Source of the DNA: Geminocystis sp. NIES-3709
GTDB taxonomy: Bacteria > Cyanobacteriota > Cyanobacteriia > Cyanobacteriales > Cyanobacteriaceae
DNA length: 64,000 bases
Assembly (NCBI RefSeq): GCF_001548115.1
Contig: NZ_AP014821.1
Coordinates: 3,723,262-3,787,261 of the forward strand
Direction: 5' to 3'
Part shown: in pieces, positions 12,567 to 23,869 of the stretch
Layout: each line of letters opens with the position of its first letter
Position numbering within the stretch: position 1 is the first letter of the stretch
The notes under the pieces: model-generated
Databases searched by the model: none
The model's input: only the letters and a program-made list of their open reading frames with translations
What the model was told of the DNA's origin: nothing
Translations under genes and position numbers: made by a program

Positions 12567-13835
12567 ATGAATAATTTAATTAGAGTCTTTGAAAGTAGAA
12601 AAATTTTAGCTTTACTATTAATTGGATTTTCCTCTGGATTACCTTATCTTCTTACAAACAAAACCCTACAGGCGTGGATGACTCAAGAAGGAGTTAATTT
12701 AACCGCTATTGGTTTATTTAGTTTAGTAGGATTACCGTATTCTTTAAAGTTTCTTTGGTCACCTTTAATGGATCGTTTTGTACCACCTTTTTTTGGGCGC
12801 CGTCGAGGTTGGTTAATTCTTACTCAACTTTTATTAGTAGTTGCGATCGCTTGTATGTCATTACAACGACCAAAAGAAGCCTTATTTTTTGTTGCCATTA
12901 ACGCTGTATTTATTGCTTTTATTAGTGCGAGTCAAGACATTGTCGCTGATGCTTATCGTACCGATATTCTTGAAGTATATGAAATGGGTGCGGGGGCGGC
13001 TACTTTTGTTTTAGGCTATCGTGTTGCTTTACTCTTAACAGGTTCATTTGCGTTGATTTTAGCGGATTTAATGCCTTTTAATTTTGTTTATTTATGTTTA
13101 GCAGGATTAATGCTACTAACTGTAACTTTTACCCTCTTTGCACCCGAACCAAAATTCGACAATAATAGCCCTCAAAGTCTCAGAGATGCGGTGATTTTGC
13201 CTTTTCAAGAGTTTTTTCAACGCTCAGGAGTAGTCTCAGGTATTTTGATGTTGTTATTCATTAACCTTTACCGATTGGGAGACTCTTTCTTAGCAAATAT
13301 GTCCACTCCTTTTCTTTTACAAACTGGATTTACACAAACCGATATTGGGGCAATTCAAGGGGGAATGGGTTTACTGGCTACCATTGTCGGCACTTTAGTA
13401 GGAGGTGCAGTTATGAGCAAAATTGGCATTAATAGAGCGTTGTGGATATTTGGAGCAATACAAGCCATTAGCAATTTATCTTATTTTGTATTATCACAGG
13501 TAGGACAAAATTACCCCATTATGATATTAACGATTAATATTGAAAATTTTTGTGGTGGTTTAGGCACAGCTTCATTTATCGCCTTTCTAATGAGTTTATG
13601 TAATCAGCAATTTTCCGCCACTCAATACGCCCTACTATCTAGTTTATATGCGGTAGGTAGAGATATTTTAGTTGCACCGGCAGGAAAAATAGTTGAAAAT
13701 ATTGGTTGGTCATGGTTTTTTCTTTTTACGATAATATTAGCCCTTCCCGGATTACTTTTATTACCTTGGTTTGCCCCTTGGAATCCTCAACTTGTAGATA
13801 TTCCCCGTCCGGGTTTAGATAATGATATAGATTAA
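12567..13835 (+). CDS. ampG: Major facilitator transporter, AmpG (muropeptide permease) type
   Basis: An inner-membrane protein of 422 residues with about 12 hydrophobic helices. The N-terminal part (GFSSGLPYLLTNKTLQAW, then LPYSLKFLWSPLMDR and FGRRRGW) is typical of AmpG-like carriers that import anhydro-muropeptides for cell-wall recycling. Substrate is inferred from the family only. An AAGGAG ribosome site precedes the ATG by 7 bases. It converges on the broken kinase gene, with only 8 bp between the stops. Confidence 0.87.
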   Translation: MNNLIRVFESRKILALLLIGFSSGLPYLLTNKTLQAWMTQEGVNLTAIGLFSLVGLPYSLKFLWSPLMDRFVPPFFGRRRGWLILTQLLLVVAIACMSLQRPKEALFFVAINAVFIAFISASQDIVADAYRTDILEVYEMGAGAATFVLGYRVALLLTGSFALILADLMPFNFVYLCLAGLMLLTVTFTLFAPEPKFDNNSPQSLRDAVILPFQEFFQRSGVVSGILMLLFINLYRLGDSFLANMSTPFLLQTGFTQTDIGAIQGGMGLLATIVGTLVGGAVMSKIGINRALWIFGAIQAISNLSYFVLSQVGQNYPIMILTINIENFCGGLGTASFIAFLMSLCNQQFSATQYALLSSLYAVGRDILVAPAGKIVENIGWSWFFLFTIILALPGLLLLPWFAPWNPQLVDIPRPGLDNDID

Positions 13836-13843
13836 AAGATTTA

Positions 13844-15442
13844 TTATTGAGTGGGTAGTTCACGAATATATTTATTGATGATACGAGAAAATTCTTCTAC
13901 CACGATCGGTTTACCGATATAATCATTCATACCTAATTGTAAACAACGTTCTTTTTCCCCTTGAACAGTTCCAGCAGTTAAGGCAATAATGGGAGTAAAT
14001 TTATTGACGGGTATTTTTCTAATTTCTTGAGTAGCTTCATAACCACTCACCATCGGCATTTGTATATCCATTAAAATTATATCAGGGTTATATTCCCTAA
14101 ATTTATCGATCGCTTCTTGTCCATTTTTCGCTTCAATAATTTTGATTTTGGGTAATATTTTATTTACCATCACTTTGGCTAAAGTCATATTAACTTTATT
14201 GTCTTCAGCAATGAGGATAGTATAATTAGAGTAATCGAGATTTATTAGATTTTCGACACATGTCGGGATAGTAAAAGTTTTTGCCGTCAGTTGAGTGAGA
14301 ATAGAATATAGTTGAGATATACTGATGGGTTTATTGAGTTGAGAGTGTATATGTAATCCTTGACACGCCTGACTAATATATCGATCGTTCGCCGTACTGT
14401 GTAACGATATAATAGGCAATTGATCCGCATTAATCATCAGTTTTGTTCGTATTTGTCTAATTATTGTTACGCCATCCATAAAAGGCATTTCATAGTCGAT
14501 AATAGCCGCCTGATAACAATTAGTCGTAATTTTTTCCAAGGCAACAATACCATTTTCCGCTATATCACCATGAATGTTTTTAAGAGCCAACATATCTTTT
14601 AAAATACTACTATTATTTTTATTATCATCAACCACTAAAACTTCTTTAATCCTATCTAAACCTTCATAGATAATCATTTCACCTATCTCAGTTTCAACTT
14701 GTATTGAAAAAAAGAAACGGCTACCTTTACCTTGTTCGCTTTCAATATGTAATTTACCACCCATTAAGTTCACTAATTTATGAGAAATAGTTAAACCTAA
14801 TCCTGTACCACCATATTTGCGAGTGGTAGATTCGTCTTCTTGAGAAAAAGCCAAAAAGATCGTTTTTTGTTTGTCAGAGGAGATACCAATACCTGTATCT
14901 CTGACGGAAAATTCTAGGGTATAACAATTATCATGTTTACTTAGTATCTTAATTGCTAATTCAATTTCTCCTGTATCGGTAAATTTAGCAGAATTACCTA
15001 AAAGGTTTATTAAGACTTGTTTTAATCTTAAATCATCTATCCATGCAAAACGAGGTAATTCGGGAGAAATATTTAGGAGTAATTCTATTTCTTTATCTTT
15101 GATTTTAAAACGAATAATATCAGTAACTTGAGTACAAATTTCCCATAAATCATGTTTTTCGATTACTAATTCTAGTTTTCCAGCTTCTATTTTGGAAAAA
15201 TCTAGTATATCGTTGATTAAGTCAAGAAGAATATTACCTGATTGATGTACTAATTGAAGATATTTTTTTTGAGTATTATTGACATTTGTTTGTAATAAAA
15301 GTTCAGAAAAACCGATAACTCCATTAAGAGGAGTGCGTATTTCGTGACTCATATTCGCTAAAAACTCTGATTTGGCAAGATTTGCCGTTTCAGCGAGTCG
15401 TTTTGCCTTTAAGAGACTTTCTTCCAAGGTTTTTCTCTCCAT
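13844..15442 (-). pseudogene. C-terminal fragment of the broken kinase: HisKA-HATPase-REC-REC
   Basis: An open frame of 532 residues from an internal ATG ([10 protein letters not shown]). It holds the phospho-acceptor His in [15 protein letters not shown], an ATPase domain with the GGTGLGL motif, and two receivers (Asp in [12 protein letters not shown] and in [12 protein letters not shown]). Upstream codons of the same frame read [12 protein letters not shown], the end of a GAF domain, up to the IS701-family terminus at 15478. It is thus a truncated gene, but the whole catalytic core is intact and could be expressed if the insertion supplies a promoter. The stop faces the AmpG gene 8 bp away. 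Confidence 0.85.
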
Positions 15443-15478
15443 AGCACTAGAAATACTATCAGCAAAGCTACAAAGTAA

Positions 15479-16830
15479 CGGTACTTAGACAAAACAATAA
15501 CAACAATTAAGCTATAATATTTACATTATATTGTTTTTAGGTCAAAATGAAAGAAATCACATCTTCATCAATGCCACCCTGTTTCGAGCGTTGGTGCCAA
15601 AAAATAGACCCTGTATTAAAAACAAAAGCACAAAAACGAGAGTTTAGAAATTATTTGGGCGGTTTATTAGGTGATTCTCAAAGAAAAAATCTCACTCAAA
15701 TTGCCCATAATAATCTTGATATTACTTATCATAAGTTACATCATTTCCTAACAGAATCCACTTGGAATTATGATGAGGTAAATAATAAAAGACTAGAAAT
15801 TATTGCCTCATGTCGTCAAACTAAAATAAGTCGCTCTTTCTCTTTAATTATCGATGATTCAGGTCATCGTAAAAGTGGCAATTTTACTGACTGTGTGGGA
15901 CGACAATATATTGGTGAAATTGGCAAAACTGATAATGGTAATATCCGCAGTCACCACCCACATTTATGATGGGGTCAGAAGTTTTCCCTTAGACGTTGAA
16001 TTATATGAAAAAGCGGAAAATTTCCCCTTGGGAAAAGATGACCCACAATTTCAAAAAAAACCCGATATTGCCTTTAATTTAATTGAAAAATGTTTAAACC
16101 GAAATTACCATCCTCAAATAATTTTAATGGATGGGGGTTATGGGAACAATACTAATTTATTAGAAAAATTAGAACAAAAAAATTTAAAATATATAGGAAT
16201 TATTGCAAAAAATAGATTAGTACAAGTAGTAAAAGAAGATTTGAGAGAGTCTGAAAAAAGAATAGATGAAATAGCTAAATTATTACCTCAAGAGAGTTTT
16301 GAAGAAATAAAAACAGGTAAAAATAGAGAAAAAACTCTTTGGGTAGCAACCATAAAAATTAAATTATCAGCCTTATCAGGAATAAAAACCGTAGCTATCG
16401 TCATGAATGCTCCCAGTTTTGAAAAGTCCACAGATATTGATTATTTAATGACCAATGAAACAGGAGAAAAAGTCTGTGCAAATTGGATAGTAGAAACTTA
16501 TACATCAAGAAATTGGATAGAAGTATTTTACCGTGAAATTAAGGGATGGTTAGGCTTATCACAATACCAAGTGAGAAATAAAAGAAGTTTAATGAGACAT
16601 TTTATATTGGTATTTTGCGCCTATACTTTTATTCAATGGCATCGTTTGACAGGGGGATTGAGAAGGCAATGGGGAAATAAACCCTTAAATACTTTTGCAG
16701 AGGCATTGGAAGCGTTTCGGACAGCAGTGTCTTTTCGTTTCTTTCAATGGTTAAAAGATAATGTGGAAGTATTTAGCTTATATAAAGCAAGTTTAGGGTT
16801 TATTTGGGCATAATTTTTGTCTAAGTACCG
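15479..16830. mobile_element. IS701-family insertion sequence
   Basis: A 1352-bp element. Both ends read CGGTACTTAGACAAAA inward, an inverted repeat of at least 16 bp. IS701 elements duplicate a 4-bp YTAR target. Here the flanks are GTAA on the left and TTAG on the right, so the copies do not match exactly: one copy mutated, or neighbouring GAF DNA was lost. The transposase inside is frameshifted. The outer 8 bp are the same as those of the two MITEs in this window. Confidence 0.87.
15547..16813 (+). pseudogene. IS701-family transposase, frameshifted
   Basis: The first frame (from 15547) holds the N-terminus and the first catalytic Asp (IIDDSGHRKSG). The second frame (to 16813) holds the second Asp (LMDGGYGNN) and the Glu (IEVFYREIKGWLGLSQ). 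They overlap near 15940, where one extra C in ATCCGCA shifts the frame; without it the junction reads DNGNIAVTTHIYDG, as in intact relatives. About 420 residues in all, the usual size. IS701 transposases are normally single frames, so this is decay rather than programmed frameshifting. Confidence 0.85.
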
Positions 16831-16834
16831 TTAG

Positions 16835-17015
16835 TTTAGATGAAATAATCCGCAGTTATTGTGACAGTTAAGTGTCTCATTCTTATTTTTAATGACTATA
16901 AATAGTAAGCCTGATCTACTTCAATCCCTTTCGCAAGTATGGACAGAGAACAGCCGATCGCACTATCAATATTTTTGTTAGAGAGTAATTCTTTAGTTGC
17001 CTGAGAAATAGCTAC
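16835..17015 (-). pseudogene. GAF-domain fragment of the broken kinase
   Basis: Read on the minus strand, the stretch next to the IS630 end encodes LVAISQATKELLSNKNIDSA, then a segment ending GIEVDQAYYL before a stop: the opening of a GAF domain. A further frame then gives a short cysteine-containing tail up to the IS701 end. Compared with a normal GAF, roughly 90 residues between these parts are missing and the frame changes, so this part is damaged beyond the two insertions beside it. Confidence 0.7.
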
Positions 17016-17030
17016 TAAGCTAAGACGCAT

Positions 17031-18161
17031 TTAACTTACATTGATTAATTCACCCTTATTCTTAAATTTTTTACTCCAATTAATTACTAAACTTCCTTCA
17101 TTTAATAAGTAATTTACTGTTTTTTCTAGCTGTTCTTTATTTTCAAAGTTTCTATAAGCTATATATTCCTTTGCCGAATGCCACACTAATTCTATTAAGT
17201 TATAATCTGGACTATATACCGGTAAATATTCTAGTCTTATATTCGGTAGATTTTTTTCTATTTTTTCTACTATTTCCTTTTTTTTATGGAAACTTGCGTT
17301 GTCTAATATTATGATTATTTTCGGACCACATTCTTTAAAATCTTTTTCATCATTTCCCTTACTTACCCATTCATTTTTTATTTCTTCCCATAACTTTTTT
17401 AATTGTTCACAAAACGTTTCTGAATCACCTTTTTTTATTACAAAACATCTTCTTTTTTTATCCGAATATCTTATTCCTCCCATGATATTTACTCTTCCTC
17501 TTCTTCTTTCTCCCTTCACCTTTTTTCTTTTTCCTTTTTTCTTTTTCCTTTTTTCGTCCATGTTTTTCTTCTTATCACCCTTAAACTAAAACCACACTCA
17601 TCCTAAAACCATACTTGAACTAACTCAGGATTCTCTTTACCTATTTCTATGTAATGTTCTAATTTTTCTTTAAATGCTTTTCTTTGTTCTTGATTTTGTT
17701 TGTCTTCTAAACTATATTTTCCCCAAATATAACTATACTTTTTTCTTTTTAATATCCTCACTACTTGTGATTTGCTTAATTTAATTCCTGTTTCTTTTTC
17801 CAAATGTTCTGATAATCTTTACCCCGTCCATCGACCAAAATCATATCCAAAATCTTCAGGATTTTTATCAACTACTTCTAATAATCTTTCAATATATTTA
17901 TCCGTTGCTTTTGTTTGGTTTCCTTTTCTTCTTTTATCTTGCAATGAATCTACATTATTAGGATTACCATGAACTGCCCAGTAAGCCACCGTTTTGGGGG
18001 AACAACCCAAAAAAACTGCTATTTCTTGATAATTTTTACCATCATTCTCTAATAAAAATATTAAAATTCTTTCCCTGACTTCCGATCTCTTTTCTATTTT
18101 TAAAGCATCTTGTAGATACTTTCTTTCTTCCTTCCTCTGACAAAAAATTTTTAGAAGGCAT
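17031..18161 (-). pseudogene. IS630-family transposase, multiply disrupted
   Basis: Read from an ATG at 18161 (MPSKNFLSEE), the frame shifts near 18120, continues through a helix-turn-helix part (FLGCSPKTVAYW), meets a TAA at 17819 after GRWTG and a TAG at 17603 where VWFW is expected, and shifts again at a 14-bp tandem duplication (17527-17554). The last 176 codons keep the DDE core: MGGIRYSDKKR, IIILDNASFHKK with the second Asp, and the Glu of YSPDYNLIELVWHSAKEY. Four lesions make it non-functional. Confidence 0.88.
17527..17554. repeat. 14-bp tandem duplication in the IS630 transposase
   Basis: The unit CTTTTTCCTTTTTT occurs twice in a row. One copy would give the family-typical lysine-rich stretch in frame; the second copy adds 14 bases and shifts the frame. 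Slipped-strand copying in the A/T-rich run is the likely cause. Confidence 0.8.
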
Positions 18162-18218
18162 AAATCACACCTAAGTTTTATCTTTTCTGACTTAAATTAT
18201 ATACCAAATCAATGCGTC

Positions 18219-19382
18219 TTAGCTTAACATTTGTTCTTTTCTAATTAATTGTTGATTTATGTTCTGTAATTCTGTTTCAGTGTTTTTTTGTTTAGTTATA
18301 TCAAAAATCAGTCCTTCAATATGTTTTAATTGAGCATTTCGATCGTAAACTCCTCTACCTTTTTCATAAACCCAAAGTTCTTGATTATCAATAGTTGTAA
18401 TAATATATTGAATTTCAAAACATTTTTTTTCTTCTAAAAACTGATTTATTTGTTTTCTAACATTATTTCGATAATCAGGATGAATAATTGCTTGTAAACT
18501 AATTTGATTAGTAATAAAATCTTCAGTTTTATAACCTGTTAATCGTTCAATTTCATCACTAATAAAAATAGCTGTATAATCTTCGTCATTAAGGCATTGA
18601 TAAGCTACTCCGGGTAAATAATCAATGAGATTTTTAAGTCGGGCTTCGCTTTCGGCTAAGGCAATTTTAATAAGTTGATTTTCAGTAATATCAGTAACAA
18701 TACCATCAATTCTAATTATTATCCCTTGTTCATTTTGGACATACTTTGCTTTACTGGAAACCCATTTTATTTCACCTTCATGAGTGACAATACGATATTC
18801 TGTTTGTGAATAACCTTTGGTTTCCATATTTTGCCAAATAACATCGACAATACCCTGATCTTCAGGATGAATAAACTGACTCCAAAGGGTGTAATCTTCC
18901 ATCCATTCTTTAAGAGGAATACCATAAATTTTTTCTACTGATGGACTAACATATATAACTTTAAAATTTGGGACACTAATTGACCATAATACTTCTGTTA
19001 AAGATGAAATTACATTTTGTAGCTGATCTTTTGTTTGTTGAAACTCAATTTCTGCTTGTTTTTGTTCTGTAATATCTGTTATTGTTCCAAACCAAAACCA
19101 TTTACCTTGATCATCTTGATGAGGTTTTGATTGAATACGCATCCATCGAATTTGATTATTGATAATAAATCTCGTTGTTTCGTTAAAAGATGATTTTTGG
19201 ATGAGTGTTTCAATATTTTTTTGTAAGAAGTAATCTTGATCGTCAGGATGGATAATATTTATAGCTAAATGGGGATGATCTAAAACATCTTGCTCTTTAA
19301 TATTATTAAGACGACACCATACAGGACTAACATAAGCAAAAGTAAAATCTTCTCGCAGTTTGTAAATACCCATAGGAATCAT
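18219..19382 (-). pseudogene. Middle fragment of the broken kinase: PAS4-PAS5-PAS6
   Basis: An open frame of 387 residues between the IS630 element and the MITE. It carries three PAS units with PAC tails: MGIYKLREDFTFAYVSPVW, then EVLWSISVPNFKVIYVSP, then LPGVAYQCLNDEDYTAIFIS, each ending in an ITDITE/IFDITK-type stretch. The last codons before the insertion are KEQML, and the stop comes from the IS630 end. The first ATG at 19382 is an internal Met; upstream codons run into the MITE target copy in frame. Alone it would be an unlinked sensor fragment. Confidence 0.85.
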
Positions 19383-19391
19383 AGAGACTAA

Positions 19392-19573
19392 CGGTACTTT
19401 GAAAAATTTTGGTGCAAAAATAGCTTCAAATACAGTCAGAGTAAGATATTTAGGTAAACGTCATAAAAACGGCTGAAACTCTTGGTATAAAAGGAAAAGT
19501 TATCGATCTATGTAAAATCTTTGATTTATAACGATTTGAGACTCATAGTTTAATATTTTTAGTTTAAGTCCCG
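19392..19573. mobile_element. 182-bp MITE, copy 1 (in the kinase gene)
   Basis: Non-coding element with ends CGGTACTT and, inverted, CGGGACTT (one base off), flanked on both sides by CTAA (19388-19391 and 19574-19577). The 4-bp YTAR target and the outer 8 bp are those of the IS701-family element at 15479. A second copy of identical length lies inverted at 23688. Removing it with one CTAA restores the kinase frame. Confidence 0.92.
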
Positions 19574-20768
19574 CTAACTCATTATATTCCGCAGTTTTTT
19601 CCAAAAGGGCAATTTGATTCCGTTTTTGTCGATCGATGTCTTGAAATGAACCATAAATACGGATACATTTACCATCTTTAAATTCAGATTTAATAATTAG
19701 TTTTACCCAAATTTCTCTAGCTTTTGCGGTAATAAATTGGACTTCCAAAGAAGAAGATTTACCCAAATTAATAGCATCATTTACAGCGTTTATAACAGTG
19801 TTTCTACTTTTTCCTTCTTTATAAAAATTAATACCTTCCATTAAGGTAACTTCAGAGGGAGATGGCAATTCATGAATTATTCTGGTCATATTAGACCATT
19901 CTACTTTTTCAGCATTTAAATACATTTGCCAACCGCCAACTCTAGCTAATTGATTAGTTTGATCTAAAAATTCTTTAGTTTTAAGCAGTTCAATTTCTGT
20001 TTTTTTTCTTGTGGTAATATCTTGAATTGTGCCAAAAAATTCTACACATTTACCATTTTCTAATTTTACATTTCCGATAATTCTCACCCAAATTTCTTTT
20101 TTCGTAGCAGTGATTATTACTACTTCTAAATCATAGCCAATACCTTCTCTGATAGCTAAATCCATCGCAGAAACTAATTTATCTCTATTTTCTCCTTCTT
20201 TAATAAAATTTATAGCTGTATCCAGATCTGCAATATAGTCTTCAGATACTTCATGAATTTTTTTAGTAATTTTTGACCAATATATTTTATTATTGATTAA
20301 ATCAGCATCCCAAAGACCAATATCACCAACTTCATTGATACGATCGAATAATGTTCTGGTATGAGATAATTGGGTTTCGATAGATTTACGATGAGTTATA
20401 TCTCTTCCCACGGCATAAATTAAATTATCAACACATCTCGATCGCCATTCTATGTAATAATAAGACCCATCATGGGAAAGATAACGATTTTCAAAATTAT
20501 AAATTTCCTTACCATTGCCTAATTTTTCTGTGGCTTCCCAAGTTGAGGATAAATCATCTGGATGAACAAAATCAAAAAATTTACGAGTTTCTAATTCAGT
20601 GGTGTTATAACCTAAGATAGATTTTCATGCTTGATTAACTCGGATAAAATTTCCTTTTAAATCAGCAATACAGAGTAAGTCTAATGCTAAAGAGAAAAAA
20701 TTTTCTAAATCTTTTTTCGCAGGTAAACTTTCTGAGATATTTTCATGAATTTTATCTTCTAAGGACAT
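19500..20768 (-). pseudogene. N-terminal fragment of the broken kinase: PAS1-PAS2-PAS3
   Basis: From the ATG at 20768 (MSLEDKIHEN) the frame gives PAS1 (DLLCIADLKGNFIRVNQA) and then a TGA at 20625-20627 in place of Trp, continues in frame through HDGSYYYIEWRSR and GRDITHRKS, and then PAS2 (GDIGLWDADLINNKIYWS) and PAS3 (VGGWQMYLNAEKVEWS). It ends inside the MITE near 19500 with foreign codons. From the GTG at 20411 a 303-residue frame is open and may be called as a gene, but it is only part of this one. Confidence 0.85.
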
Positions 20769-20954: not shown

Positions 20955-21746
20955 ATGATGAATCAAATCAGATTCCTAAAAGTAGTATCCTCAATGTTGA
21001 TTTCTATCGCATTTTTTGTTTTTCATCCAGCGGGTGCCTATGGGGGAGAATGGCAAGAAATTGAAAAAAAAGGACTATTAACCATAGCTGTTAAAGATAA
21101 TTTGCGTCCTTTGGGTTATCGTGATCAAGAGGGTAATTTACGGGGATTTGAAATTGATTTAGCCCATCGTTTAGCTTTAGAATTGTTAGGGGAAGAAAAA
21201 GCAGTTCAACTTATTCCCGTCAATAATCAAGAAAGAATACAAATTGTCACAGATGTAGAAGTAGATTTGGCGATCGCCTCAGTAACAGCTAATGCCTCTC
21301 GTCGTCGCATCGTAGATTTTAGTGATTCATACTATTTAGATGGTACGGGAATTTTGGTCAAAAAAGGCAAAAAAATAGATTTAACGAAGAAAATTGGGGT
21401 ACTTTCTAATTCTCGATCGATCGACCAAATCAGATATAATTTACCGAGAGTTACATTACAAGCCGTCTCATCCTATGAAAAAGCCTTAGAATTGATGGAA
21501 TTAGGAGAAATTGAAGGATTTGCGGGAGATATAACTGTTTTAGTCGGTTGGGTACAAGAAAACAGTGATTATGAACTATTATCAAAGGTTTTTGGTGGTT
21601 ATCCCCTCTCGATCGTACTTCCTAAAGGACGACAATATCAAGAATTACGAGATAAAGTAAACCAAGTAATCAGAAAATTGAATCAAGAAGGATGGTTAGA
21701 GGAAAAAGCTAAATATTGGGGATTACCGATTAATAACTTAAACTAA
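20955..21746 (+). CDS. Periplasmic amino-acid-binding protein (SBP_bac_3 family)
   Basis: A solute-binding protein of 263 residues of a polar amino-acid ABC transporter. Residues 1-29 are a signal peptide (hydrophobic stretch VVSSMLISIAFFVFHPAGA). The mature start KKGLLTIAVKDNLRPLGYRD, then GFEIDLAHRLA and VDFSDSYY, are family signatures. No permease or ATPase gene is adjacent, so it is an orphan that works with subunits coded elsewhere or acts in sensing. Which amino acid is bound cannot be told. A candidate terminator lies 140 bp downstream. Confidence 0.87.
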   Translation: MMNQIRFLKVVSSMLISIAFFVFHPAGAYGGEWQEIEKKGLLTIAVKDNLRPLGYRDQEGNLRGFEIDLAHRLALELLGEEKAVQLIPVNNQERIQIVTDVEVDLAIASVTANASRRRIVDFSDSYYLDGTGILVKKGKKIDLTKKIGVLSNSRSIDQIRYNLPRVTLQAVSSYEKALELMELGEIEGFAGDITVLVGWVQENSDYELLSKVFGGYPLSIVLPKGRQYQELRDKVNQVIRKLNQEGWLEEKAKYWGLPINNLN

Positions 21747-23562: not shown

Positions 23563-23687
23563 TGAAAAATAAATTTTATAGGGTATCTATACTATAAATA
23601 TAAATATAGCAACTCATAATATCCTGTTTCATGGGCAATGTTCGTTTATATATAATTCGTAATTACCATGAGCAGGTTTACTACTAG

Positions 23688-23869
23688 CGGTACTTAAACT
23701 AAAAATATAAAACTATGAGTCTCAAATCTTTATGAATCAAAGATTTTACATCGATTAATAACTTTTCCTTTGATAGTAGGAGTTTCAGCCATTTTTATCT
23801 TGTTTACCTAAATCCCTTATGCTGACTGTATTTTAAGCTATTTTTGCACAAAAATTTCTCAAAGTACCG
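23688..23869. mobile_element. 182-bp MITE, copy 2
   Basis: Same length as copy 1 (19392-19573) and, when reversed, closely similar along its whole length. The inverted ends are CGGTACTT and AAGTACCG, and the flanks are CTAG on both sides (23684-23687 and 23870-23873). It fills most of the gap between the TerD and FHA-PBP genes. Confidence 0.92.

Follow-up and report, generated by a model that had tools for sequence, protein, structure and literature searches.

Very probable remains of a single hybrid histidine kinase gene, broken by mobile elements, in the cyanobacterium Geminocystis sp. NIES-3709

The DNA analysed here (the window) is a stretch of 64,000 nucleotides from Geminocystis sp. NIES-3709 (contig NZ_AP014821.1). 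Within it, the minus strand carries five coding pieces in a row between 20768 and 13844; what separates them is a stop codon, an element of 182 bp and one element each of the IS630 and IS701 families (Table 1). The pieces are flanked on one side by a major facilitator superfamily (MFS) gene, whose end is at 13835, and on the other by a gene for a substrate-binding protein, with its start at 20955. The window has a GC content of 33.6%; the octamer GCGATCGC occurs 22 times and CGATCG 108 times (∼6 expected), an excess that we take to be the HIP1 signature of cyanobacteria. A scan of the window against Rfam gave no match.

Table 1. Coding pieces and lesions of the broken kinase gene (window coordinates)
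Feature	Coordinates	Strand	Content
Piece A1	20768-20628 (with TGA, 20625..20768)	-	N-terminus and first part of PAS1
TGA nonsense codon	20627-20625	-	ends piece A1; Trp in orthologues
Piece A2	20624-19578	-	remainder of PAS1, then PAS2 and PAS3
MITE	19388..19577; core 19392-19573 (182 bp)	.	IS701-like ends, CTAA duplicated
Piece B	19391-18227	-	PAS4, PAS5 and PAS6; 388 codons open
IS630-family element	17016..18226 with TA copies; core 17018-18224 (1207 bp)	-	transposase frame broken
Piece C	16831..17017; GAF N-terminus 17015-16899	-	38 GAF residues, frameshift (net -1), then tail
IS701-family element	15479..16830	+	transposase frameshifted; flanks GTAA/TTAG
Piece D	15472-13844 (part listed as 13844..15478)	-	last GAF residues, HisKA, HATPase_c, two receivers

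Piece D, an open frame of 532 codons from an ATG at 15442, matches the Pfam families HisKA (3.5e-23) and HATPase_c (5e-27) and has two Response_reg stretches, all above the cut-offs. Three PAS stretches were found in piece B, and A2 also matches PAS. For the number of PAS units (six) and for the assignment of GAF we rely on the alignment with relatives, because PAS2 is barely at the Pfam cut-off (25.7 bits versus 25.6), PAS3 is under it (14.7 bits), and neither A1 alone nor C alone has a Pfam match. The six units proposed by a sequence-only reading of the locus are reasonable by that alignment, with weaker Pfam support for PAS2 and PAS3.

We searched 15 genomes of the family, including the genome of the window itself. 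Among the matches listed, the gene is found as one ORF in eight of the 14 other genomes: six orthologues that were aligned across the joints, plus G020 and G021. A BLASTP comparison of the pieces with the long ORFs of the relatives mapped the pieces in their order to one ORF in each of these six, two of the same genus (G004, 1211 a.a.; G002, 1344 a.a.) and four others (G006, 1489 a.a.; G012, 1496 a.a.; G008, 1231 a.a.; G011, 1223 a.a.), and as the best match per piece has an E-value between 0 and 4e-9, chance is no explanation. All five pieces are matched in seven of the eight whole orthologues; the exception is G021, whose ORF starts at PAS3 and is without A1 and the first part of A2. The eight orthologues share with the window the arrangement PAS array, GAF segment, HisKA, HATPase_c and receiver(s), and the best match of each window piece is 36–75% identical; they differ in that their ORFs are whole and in that the number of PAS domains and the PAS domain in second place vary. 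We took the gene as absent from six further genomes (G001, G003, G005, G007, G009 and G010), since the identity to piece B is at most 37% there among the matches listed.

HisKA, HATPase_c and receivers in one chain, with sensor and catalytic parts continuous in the orthologues, identify the ancestral product as a hybrid histidine kinase. An ORF caller would report the pieces as neighbouring PAS proteins and a kinase, and they might always have been such separate genes; but with one continuous ORF in eight relatives and a frame that is exact at two clean insertions (see below), this has next to no probability and is already refuted by the whole orthologues. The sequence-only reading, which had joined the pieces into one hybrid kinase gene and named a continuous orthologue in related cyanobacteria as the test, is borne out on this point (six orthologues by alignment, eight by BLAST).

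G006 and G012 are nearest to the window in architecture, with two receivers and a GAF domain called by Pfam; GAF was not called by Pfam in G002, G004, G008 and G011 at a threshold of 1e-5, but the aligned segment is present in all four. Two receivers are also found by Pfam in G008 and G011 and in the window, compared with a single receiver in the congeners G002 and G004 (L040 and L041), which suggests that these congeners lost the first receiver, as the four relatives with two are more distant. PAS2 and PAS3 of the window share short direct repeats at a spacing of 381 bp (19578-20369), PAS2 aligns poorly with the PAS domain at that place in relatives, and the relatives have a different PAS domain, or none, at the place of the PAS2/PAS3 repeats. 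By these alignments, PAS modules appear to turn over, and the GAF domain and kinase core appear to stay.

We looked for four neighbours in the window, which from their sequences we take to be an aminopeptidase, an MFS transporter, a binding protein and an LpxD-like protein, and found none of them within 5 to 20 kb around the gene in the eight relatives, so the gene sits elsewhere in those genomes. The congener G003 keeps the aminopeptidase–MFS pair, followed by other genes, and in three stretches taken from G003 and G004 we saw no remnant of the kinase. The MFS gene itself (12567-13835) is 93% identical at the DNA level to that of G003, as against only 85% for the aminopeptidase gene upstream; it has no match in nine of the 13 other genomes searched and is at most 30% identical in three more. 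A recent transfer of this transporter gene is possible.

The first lesion is the TGA codon, which stands in PAS1 where all six aligned orthologues have a tryptophan. The second is a miniature inverted-repeat transposable element (MITE) between CTAA copies at 19388-19391 and 19574-19577. Its removal together with one target copy restores the frame and the orthologue length exactly (the joint falls between EYNE and LVSM, and the empty site reads ...KTAEYNELVSMIPMG...); the insert of 186 bp is a multiple of three, and it is an internal stop that breaks the frame. The element is gene-less (longest open stretch 30 codons), has an NTAN duplication and a CGGTACTT end, and at its right end carries the one mismatch of its subgroup (AAGTCCCG). 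A repeat search saw no 12-nt inverted pair in it, and its DNA folds no better than shuffles. There are 33 matches in the same genome (counting the window copy and partial ones), of which 19 were analysed: a perfect 4-bp NTAN duplication is present in 14 of the 18 readable copies, one being unreadable. Short, multicopy and with the ends and target duplication of a resident IS, it can be classified as an IS701-related MITE, although the right-end mismatch and the lack of a 12-nt inverted pair speak against this; the shared ends and target duplication suggest that it may be mobilised by the IS701 transposase. A second copy lies in the window (23685-23869, 88%), and the left-end pattern occurs at 27 sites in the genome. 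Elsewhere, we found six matches in G008, which belongs to another genus, and at most two partial ones in four further genomes of the family; a plasmid search with the MITE matched no records.

The IS630-family element is likewise a clean insertion. It is flanked by TA copies at 17016-17017 and 18225-18226, and taking it out with one of them (joint between RKEQML and VAISQ, one TA kept; empty site ...RKEQMLVAISQATKELL...) restores the frame and the length of the orthologues exactly. One part of its broken transposase frame matches NF033545 (E-value 5.5e-33; 114.7 bits, cut-off 100), and all of the 20 copies pulled from 36 matches in the genome (window copy and partial ones counted) have TA flanks. 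The joint given for IS630 in the sequence-only reading was in frame but left out one codon; its statement that the frame is exact at two of the three insertions once element and one target copy are removed holds for the MITE and IS630. Of the breaks, the TGA and the GAF frameshift described below are small changes that could have come from an assembly or sequencing error. Such an origin is very improbable for the locus, as the MITE and IS630 come with correct target duplications and multicopy sisters, and the window belongs to contig C1, which measures 4.15 Mb, in an assembly of 4.43 Mb and 99.97% completeness.

The third element is of the IS701 type: the C-terminal part of its transposase matches NF033540 (E-value 1.4e-45; 156.2 bits, cut-off 150), and the N-terminal part alone, in a frame split by 1 nt, scores 118.3 bits, under that cut-off. 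Its flanking tetramers do not form a matching target duplication. The genome has 46 matches to this element (window copy and partial ones counted); among 20 of them that were pulled, 15 have a perfect 4-bp NTAN duplication and five do not (in one, L065, both outer bases of the flanks are likewise mismatched), so that a mismatch alone is not rare. The copies (L064-L083) fall into a 99%-identical subgroup, in which all 12 copies have the same 1-nt transposase shift (near 15945 in the window), and a 90% subgroup with a stretch of 423 open codons in eight pulled copies. Either a defective copy was amplified in trans, or translation bridges the shift. A plasmid search gave nine records with IS701 relatives at 68–72% identity, all of which we take, by their names, to be cyanobacterial.

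The GAF domain is broken on one side of this element and resumes on the other. The frame shifts by a net -1 after 38 residues, a shift that a frameshift-aware alignment passes in three of the six orthologues (G002, G006 and G012) and at which it stops in the other three. Read in the shifted frame, which was chosen by the analyst, the tail has the exact continuation of GAF as the best of 137 offsets and reaches about position 59 of 157, but the fit to positions 39-59 is weak: the profile scores below zero (-1.12), a value matched by 12 of 2000 shuffles at this offset, and other frames contain short windows with higher scores elsewhere. At the nucleotide level, compared across seven genomes (G021 left out), the last 29 bases show an identity close to background, with 5–13 matches out of 29 for the continuation and up to 17 out of 29 for other offsets, at inconsistent places. 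Beyond IS701, GAF is taken up again near position 149; some 89 codons are gone, and this deletion lies apparently at the boundary of the element.

As IS701 has no matching target duplication, its insertion and the GAF deletion are probably linked, on moderate evidence; we grade the link no higher than probable because the tail scores below zero in a frame picked by the analyst, rival windows score higher and nucleotide identity gives no support. The missing duplication is compatible with a deletion next to the IS or with recombination of IS copies; a published study names both as causes of absent target duplications (PMC11708052). The IS-adjacent deletions described there are similar in having the IS at the deletion edge without a target duplication; they were followed in E. 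coli and Pseudomonas with another IS family, whereas here the end state alone is seen. We considered a GAF decay independent of IS701 and set it aside, given that the tail is best at the exact GAF continuation among the 137 offsets, the link with IS701 being probable only. The 'GAF decay' of the sequence-only reading is right in that GAF is damaged, but a more accurate description is a small frameshift together with a deletion that seems to lie at the boundary of IS701.

Taken against the whole orthologues, the frame is broken by the TGA, two clean insertions, the GAF frameshift and the deletion with IS701, as expected of a pseudogene, and we are highly confident that the pieces are the remains of one ancestral hybrid histidine kinase gene, now a recent pseudogene broken by these lesions; the agents of damage proposed earlier (IS701, IS630, a MITE, a nonsense codon and a GAF lesion) are all supported. 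The ancestor would have had six PAS units, GAF, HisKA, HATPase_c and two receivers. The damage to it comprised, in no particular order, a change of Trp to TGA in PAS1, insertion of the IS701-like MITE between PAS3 and PAS4 and of IS630 between PAS6 and GAF (all three evident from the sequence and the whole orthologues), a small GAF frameshift (from the alignment with three of the six orthologues), and the arrival of IS701 with loss of ∼89 GAF codons, apparently at its boundary. That IS701 caused the deletion is suggested by the missing target duplication and the weak GAF tail alignment.

The sequence-only reading also held that the order of damage and the ancestral protein can be read directly, which did not stand up: about 89 GAF codons are gone, so the protein is not readable in full, and the order is unreadable from one genome, because the elements lie side by side, not nested, and are all too close to their sister copies. 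The window MITE is identical over 185 bases to one copy on contig C12 (L002, left out of the copy comparison) and one substitution away from seven others. The window IS701 has no private substitutions among 20 copies and 3–12 differences to the 11 others of its subgroup, and the window IS630 differs from 19 others by 3–6 substitutions and 18–63 gap columns (its 16 'private' columns must be mostly places where other copies have gaps). A readable order was dropped, since these divergences do not separate the events in time.

Decay is not elevated in what remains of the gene. Among positions that do not vary in the other eight genes, the window differs at 1 of 22 in A, 1 of 44 in B, 1 of 16 in C and 5 of 176 in D, within the range of the whole orthologues (for piece D, the same comparison gives from 1 of 172 to 12 of 183 in the other eight). 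G004 is an outlier (22 of 43 in A and 22 of 65 in B), probably due to its differing PAS domains. With no excess of changes at conserved sites, the breakage looks recent. Branch lengths do not separate selection on D from that on B, a comparison with little power for so recent an event.

Since no reading frame joins the sensor half to the catalytic half, we infer from the sequence that the function of the whole kinase is lost; the conserved sites of piece D fit recency and are no proof that D itself is lost. Piece D might instead work as a shorter, sensorless kinase, a HisKA-HATPase-REC-REC protein of 532 residues from the ATG at 15442, perhaps with a promoter at the IS701 end. Its open frame, its domain matches above the cut-offs and its conserved sites would agree with this, but the insertions seem so recent that decay would not yet be visible, the number of promoter-like matches is that of shuffled sequence (41 found, mean 39.7), and such a short form is found in none of the eight whole orthologues; we regard it as unlikely. 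Slightly less likely still is that the breakage released D as a new protein that would be expressed and signal without PAS/GAF sensors, in which case the insertions would have rewired the gene instead of merely killing it. No close paralogue was seen in the same genome, where the best-scoring other match to D has 43% identity along the full length of the piece and matches to the kinase core go up to 48%. A relative of D (52% identical over residues 7-526) is found on a MAG contig titled uncultured Bacteroidetes (L104), either by misbinning or by transfer; the contig scan that gave it found 16 loci, none of them titled as a cyanobacterium.

That the locus is a rare case, as first proposed, is not supported. 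For Anabaena sp. 90, a published study (PMC3542288) gives 227 pseudogenes, with two-component genes, kinases included, among them, and places 15 of 147 MITEs inside broken ORFs. Those pseudogenes resemble the locus in that two-component genes and IS- and MITE-disrupted ORFs occur among them, whereas the MITEs described there have no IS-like ends (type II), unlike the window MITE, which has its ends and target duplication in common with the resident IS701. A literature search found no paper on this locus, which carries little weight. The locus is ordinary gene loss, well resolved and known in kind, and of small scientific reach, since losses of this type are on record for cyanobacteria. It is a clean example of gene loss by mobile elements in an IS-rich genome, one in which a list of ORFs would show several proteins in place of a single dead gene. 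The details most open to reuse are that the MITE and IS701 have their ends and target duplication in common, and that the GAF deletion is probably linked to IS701.
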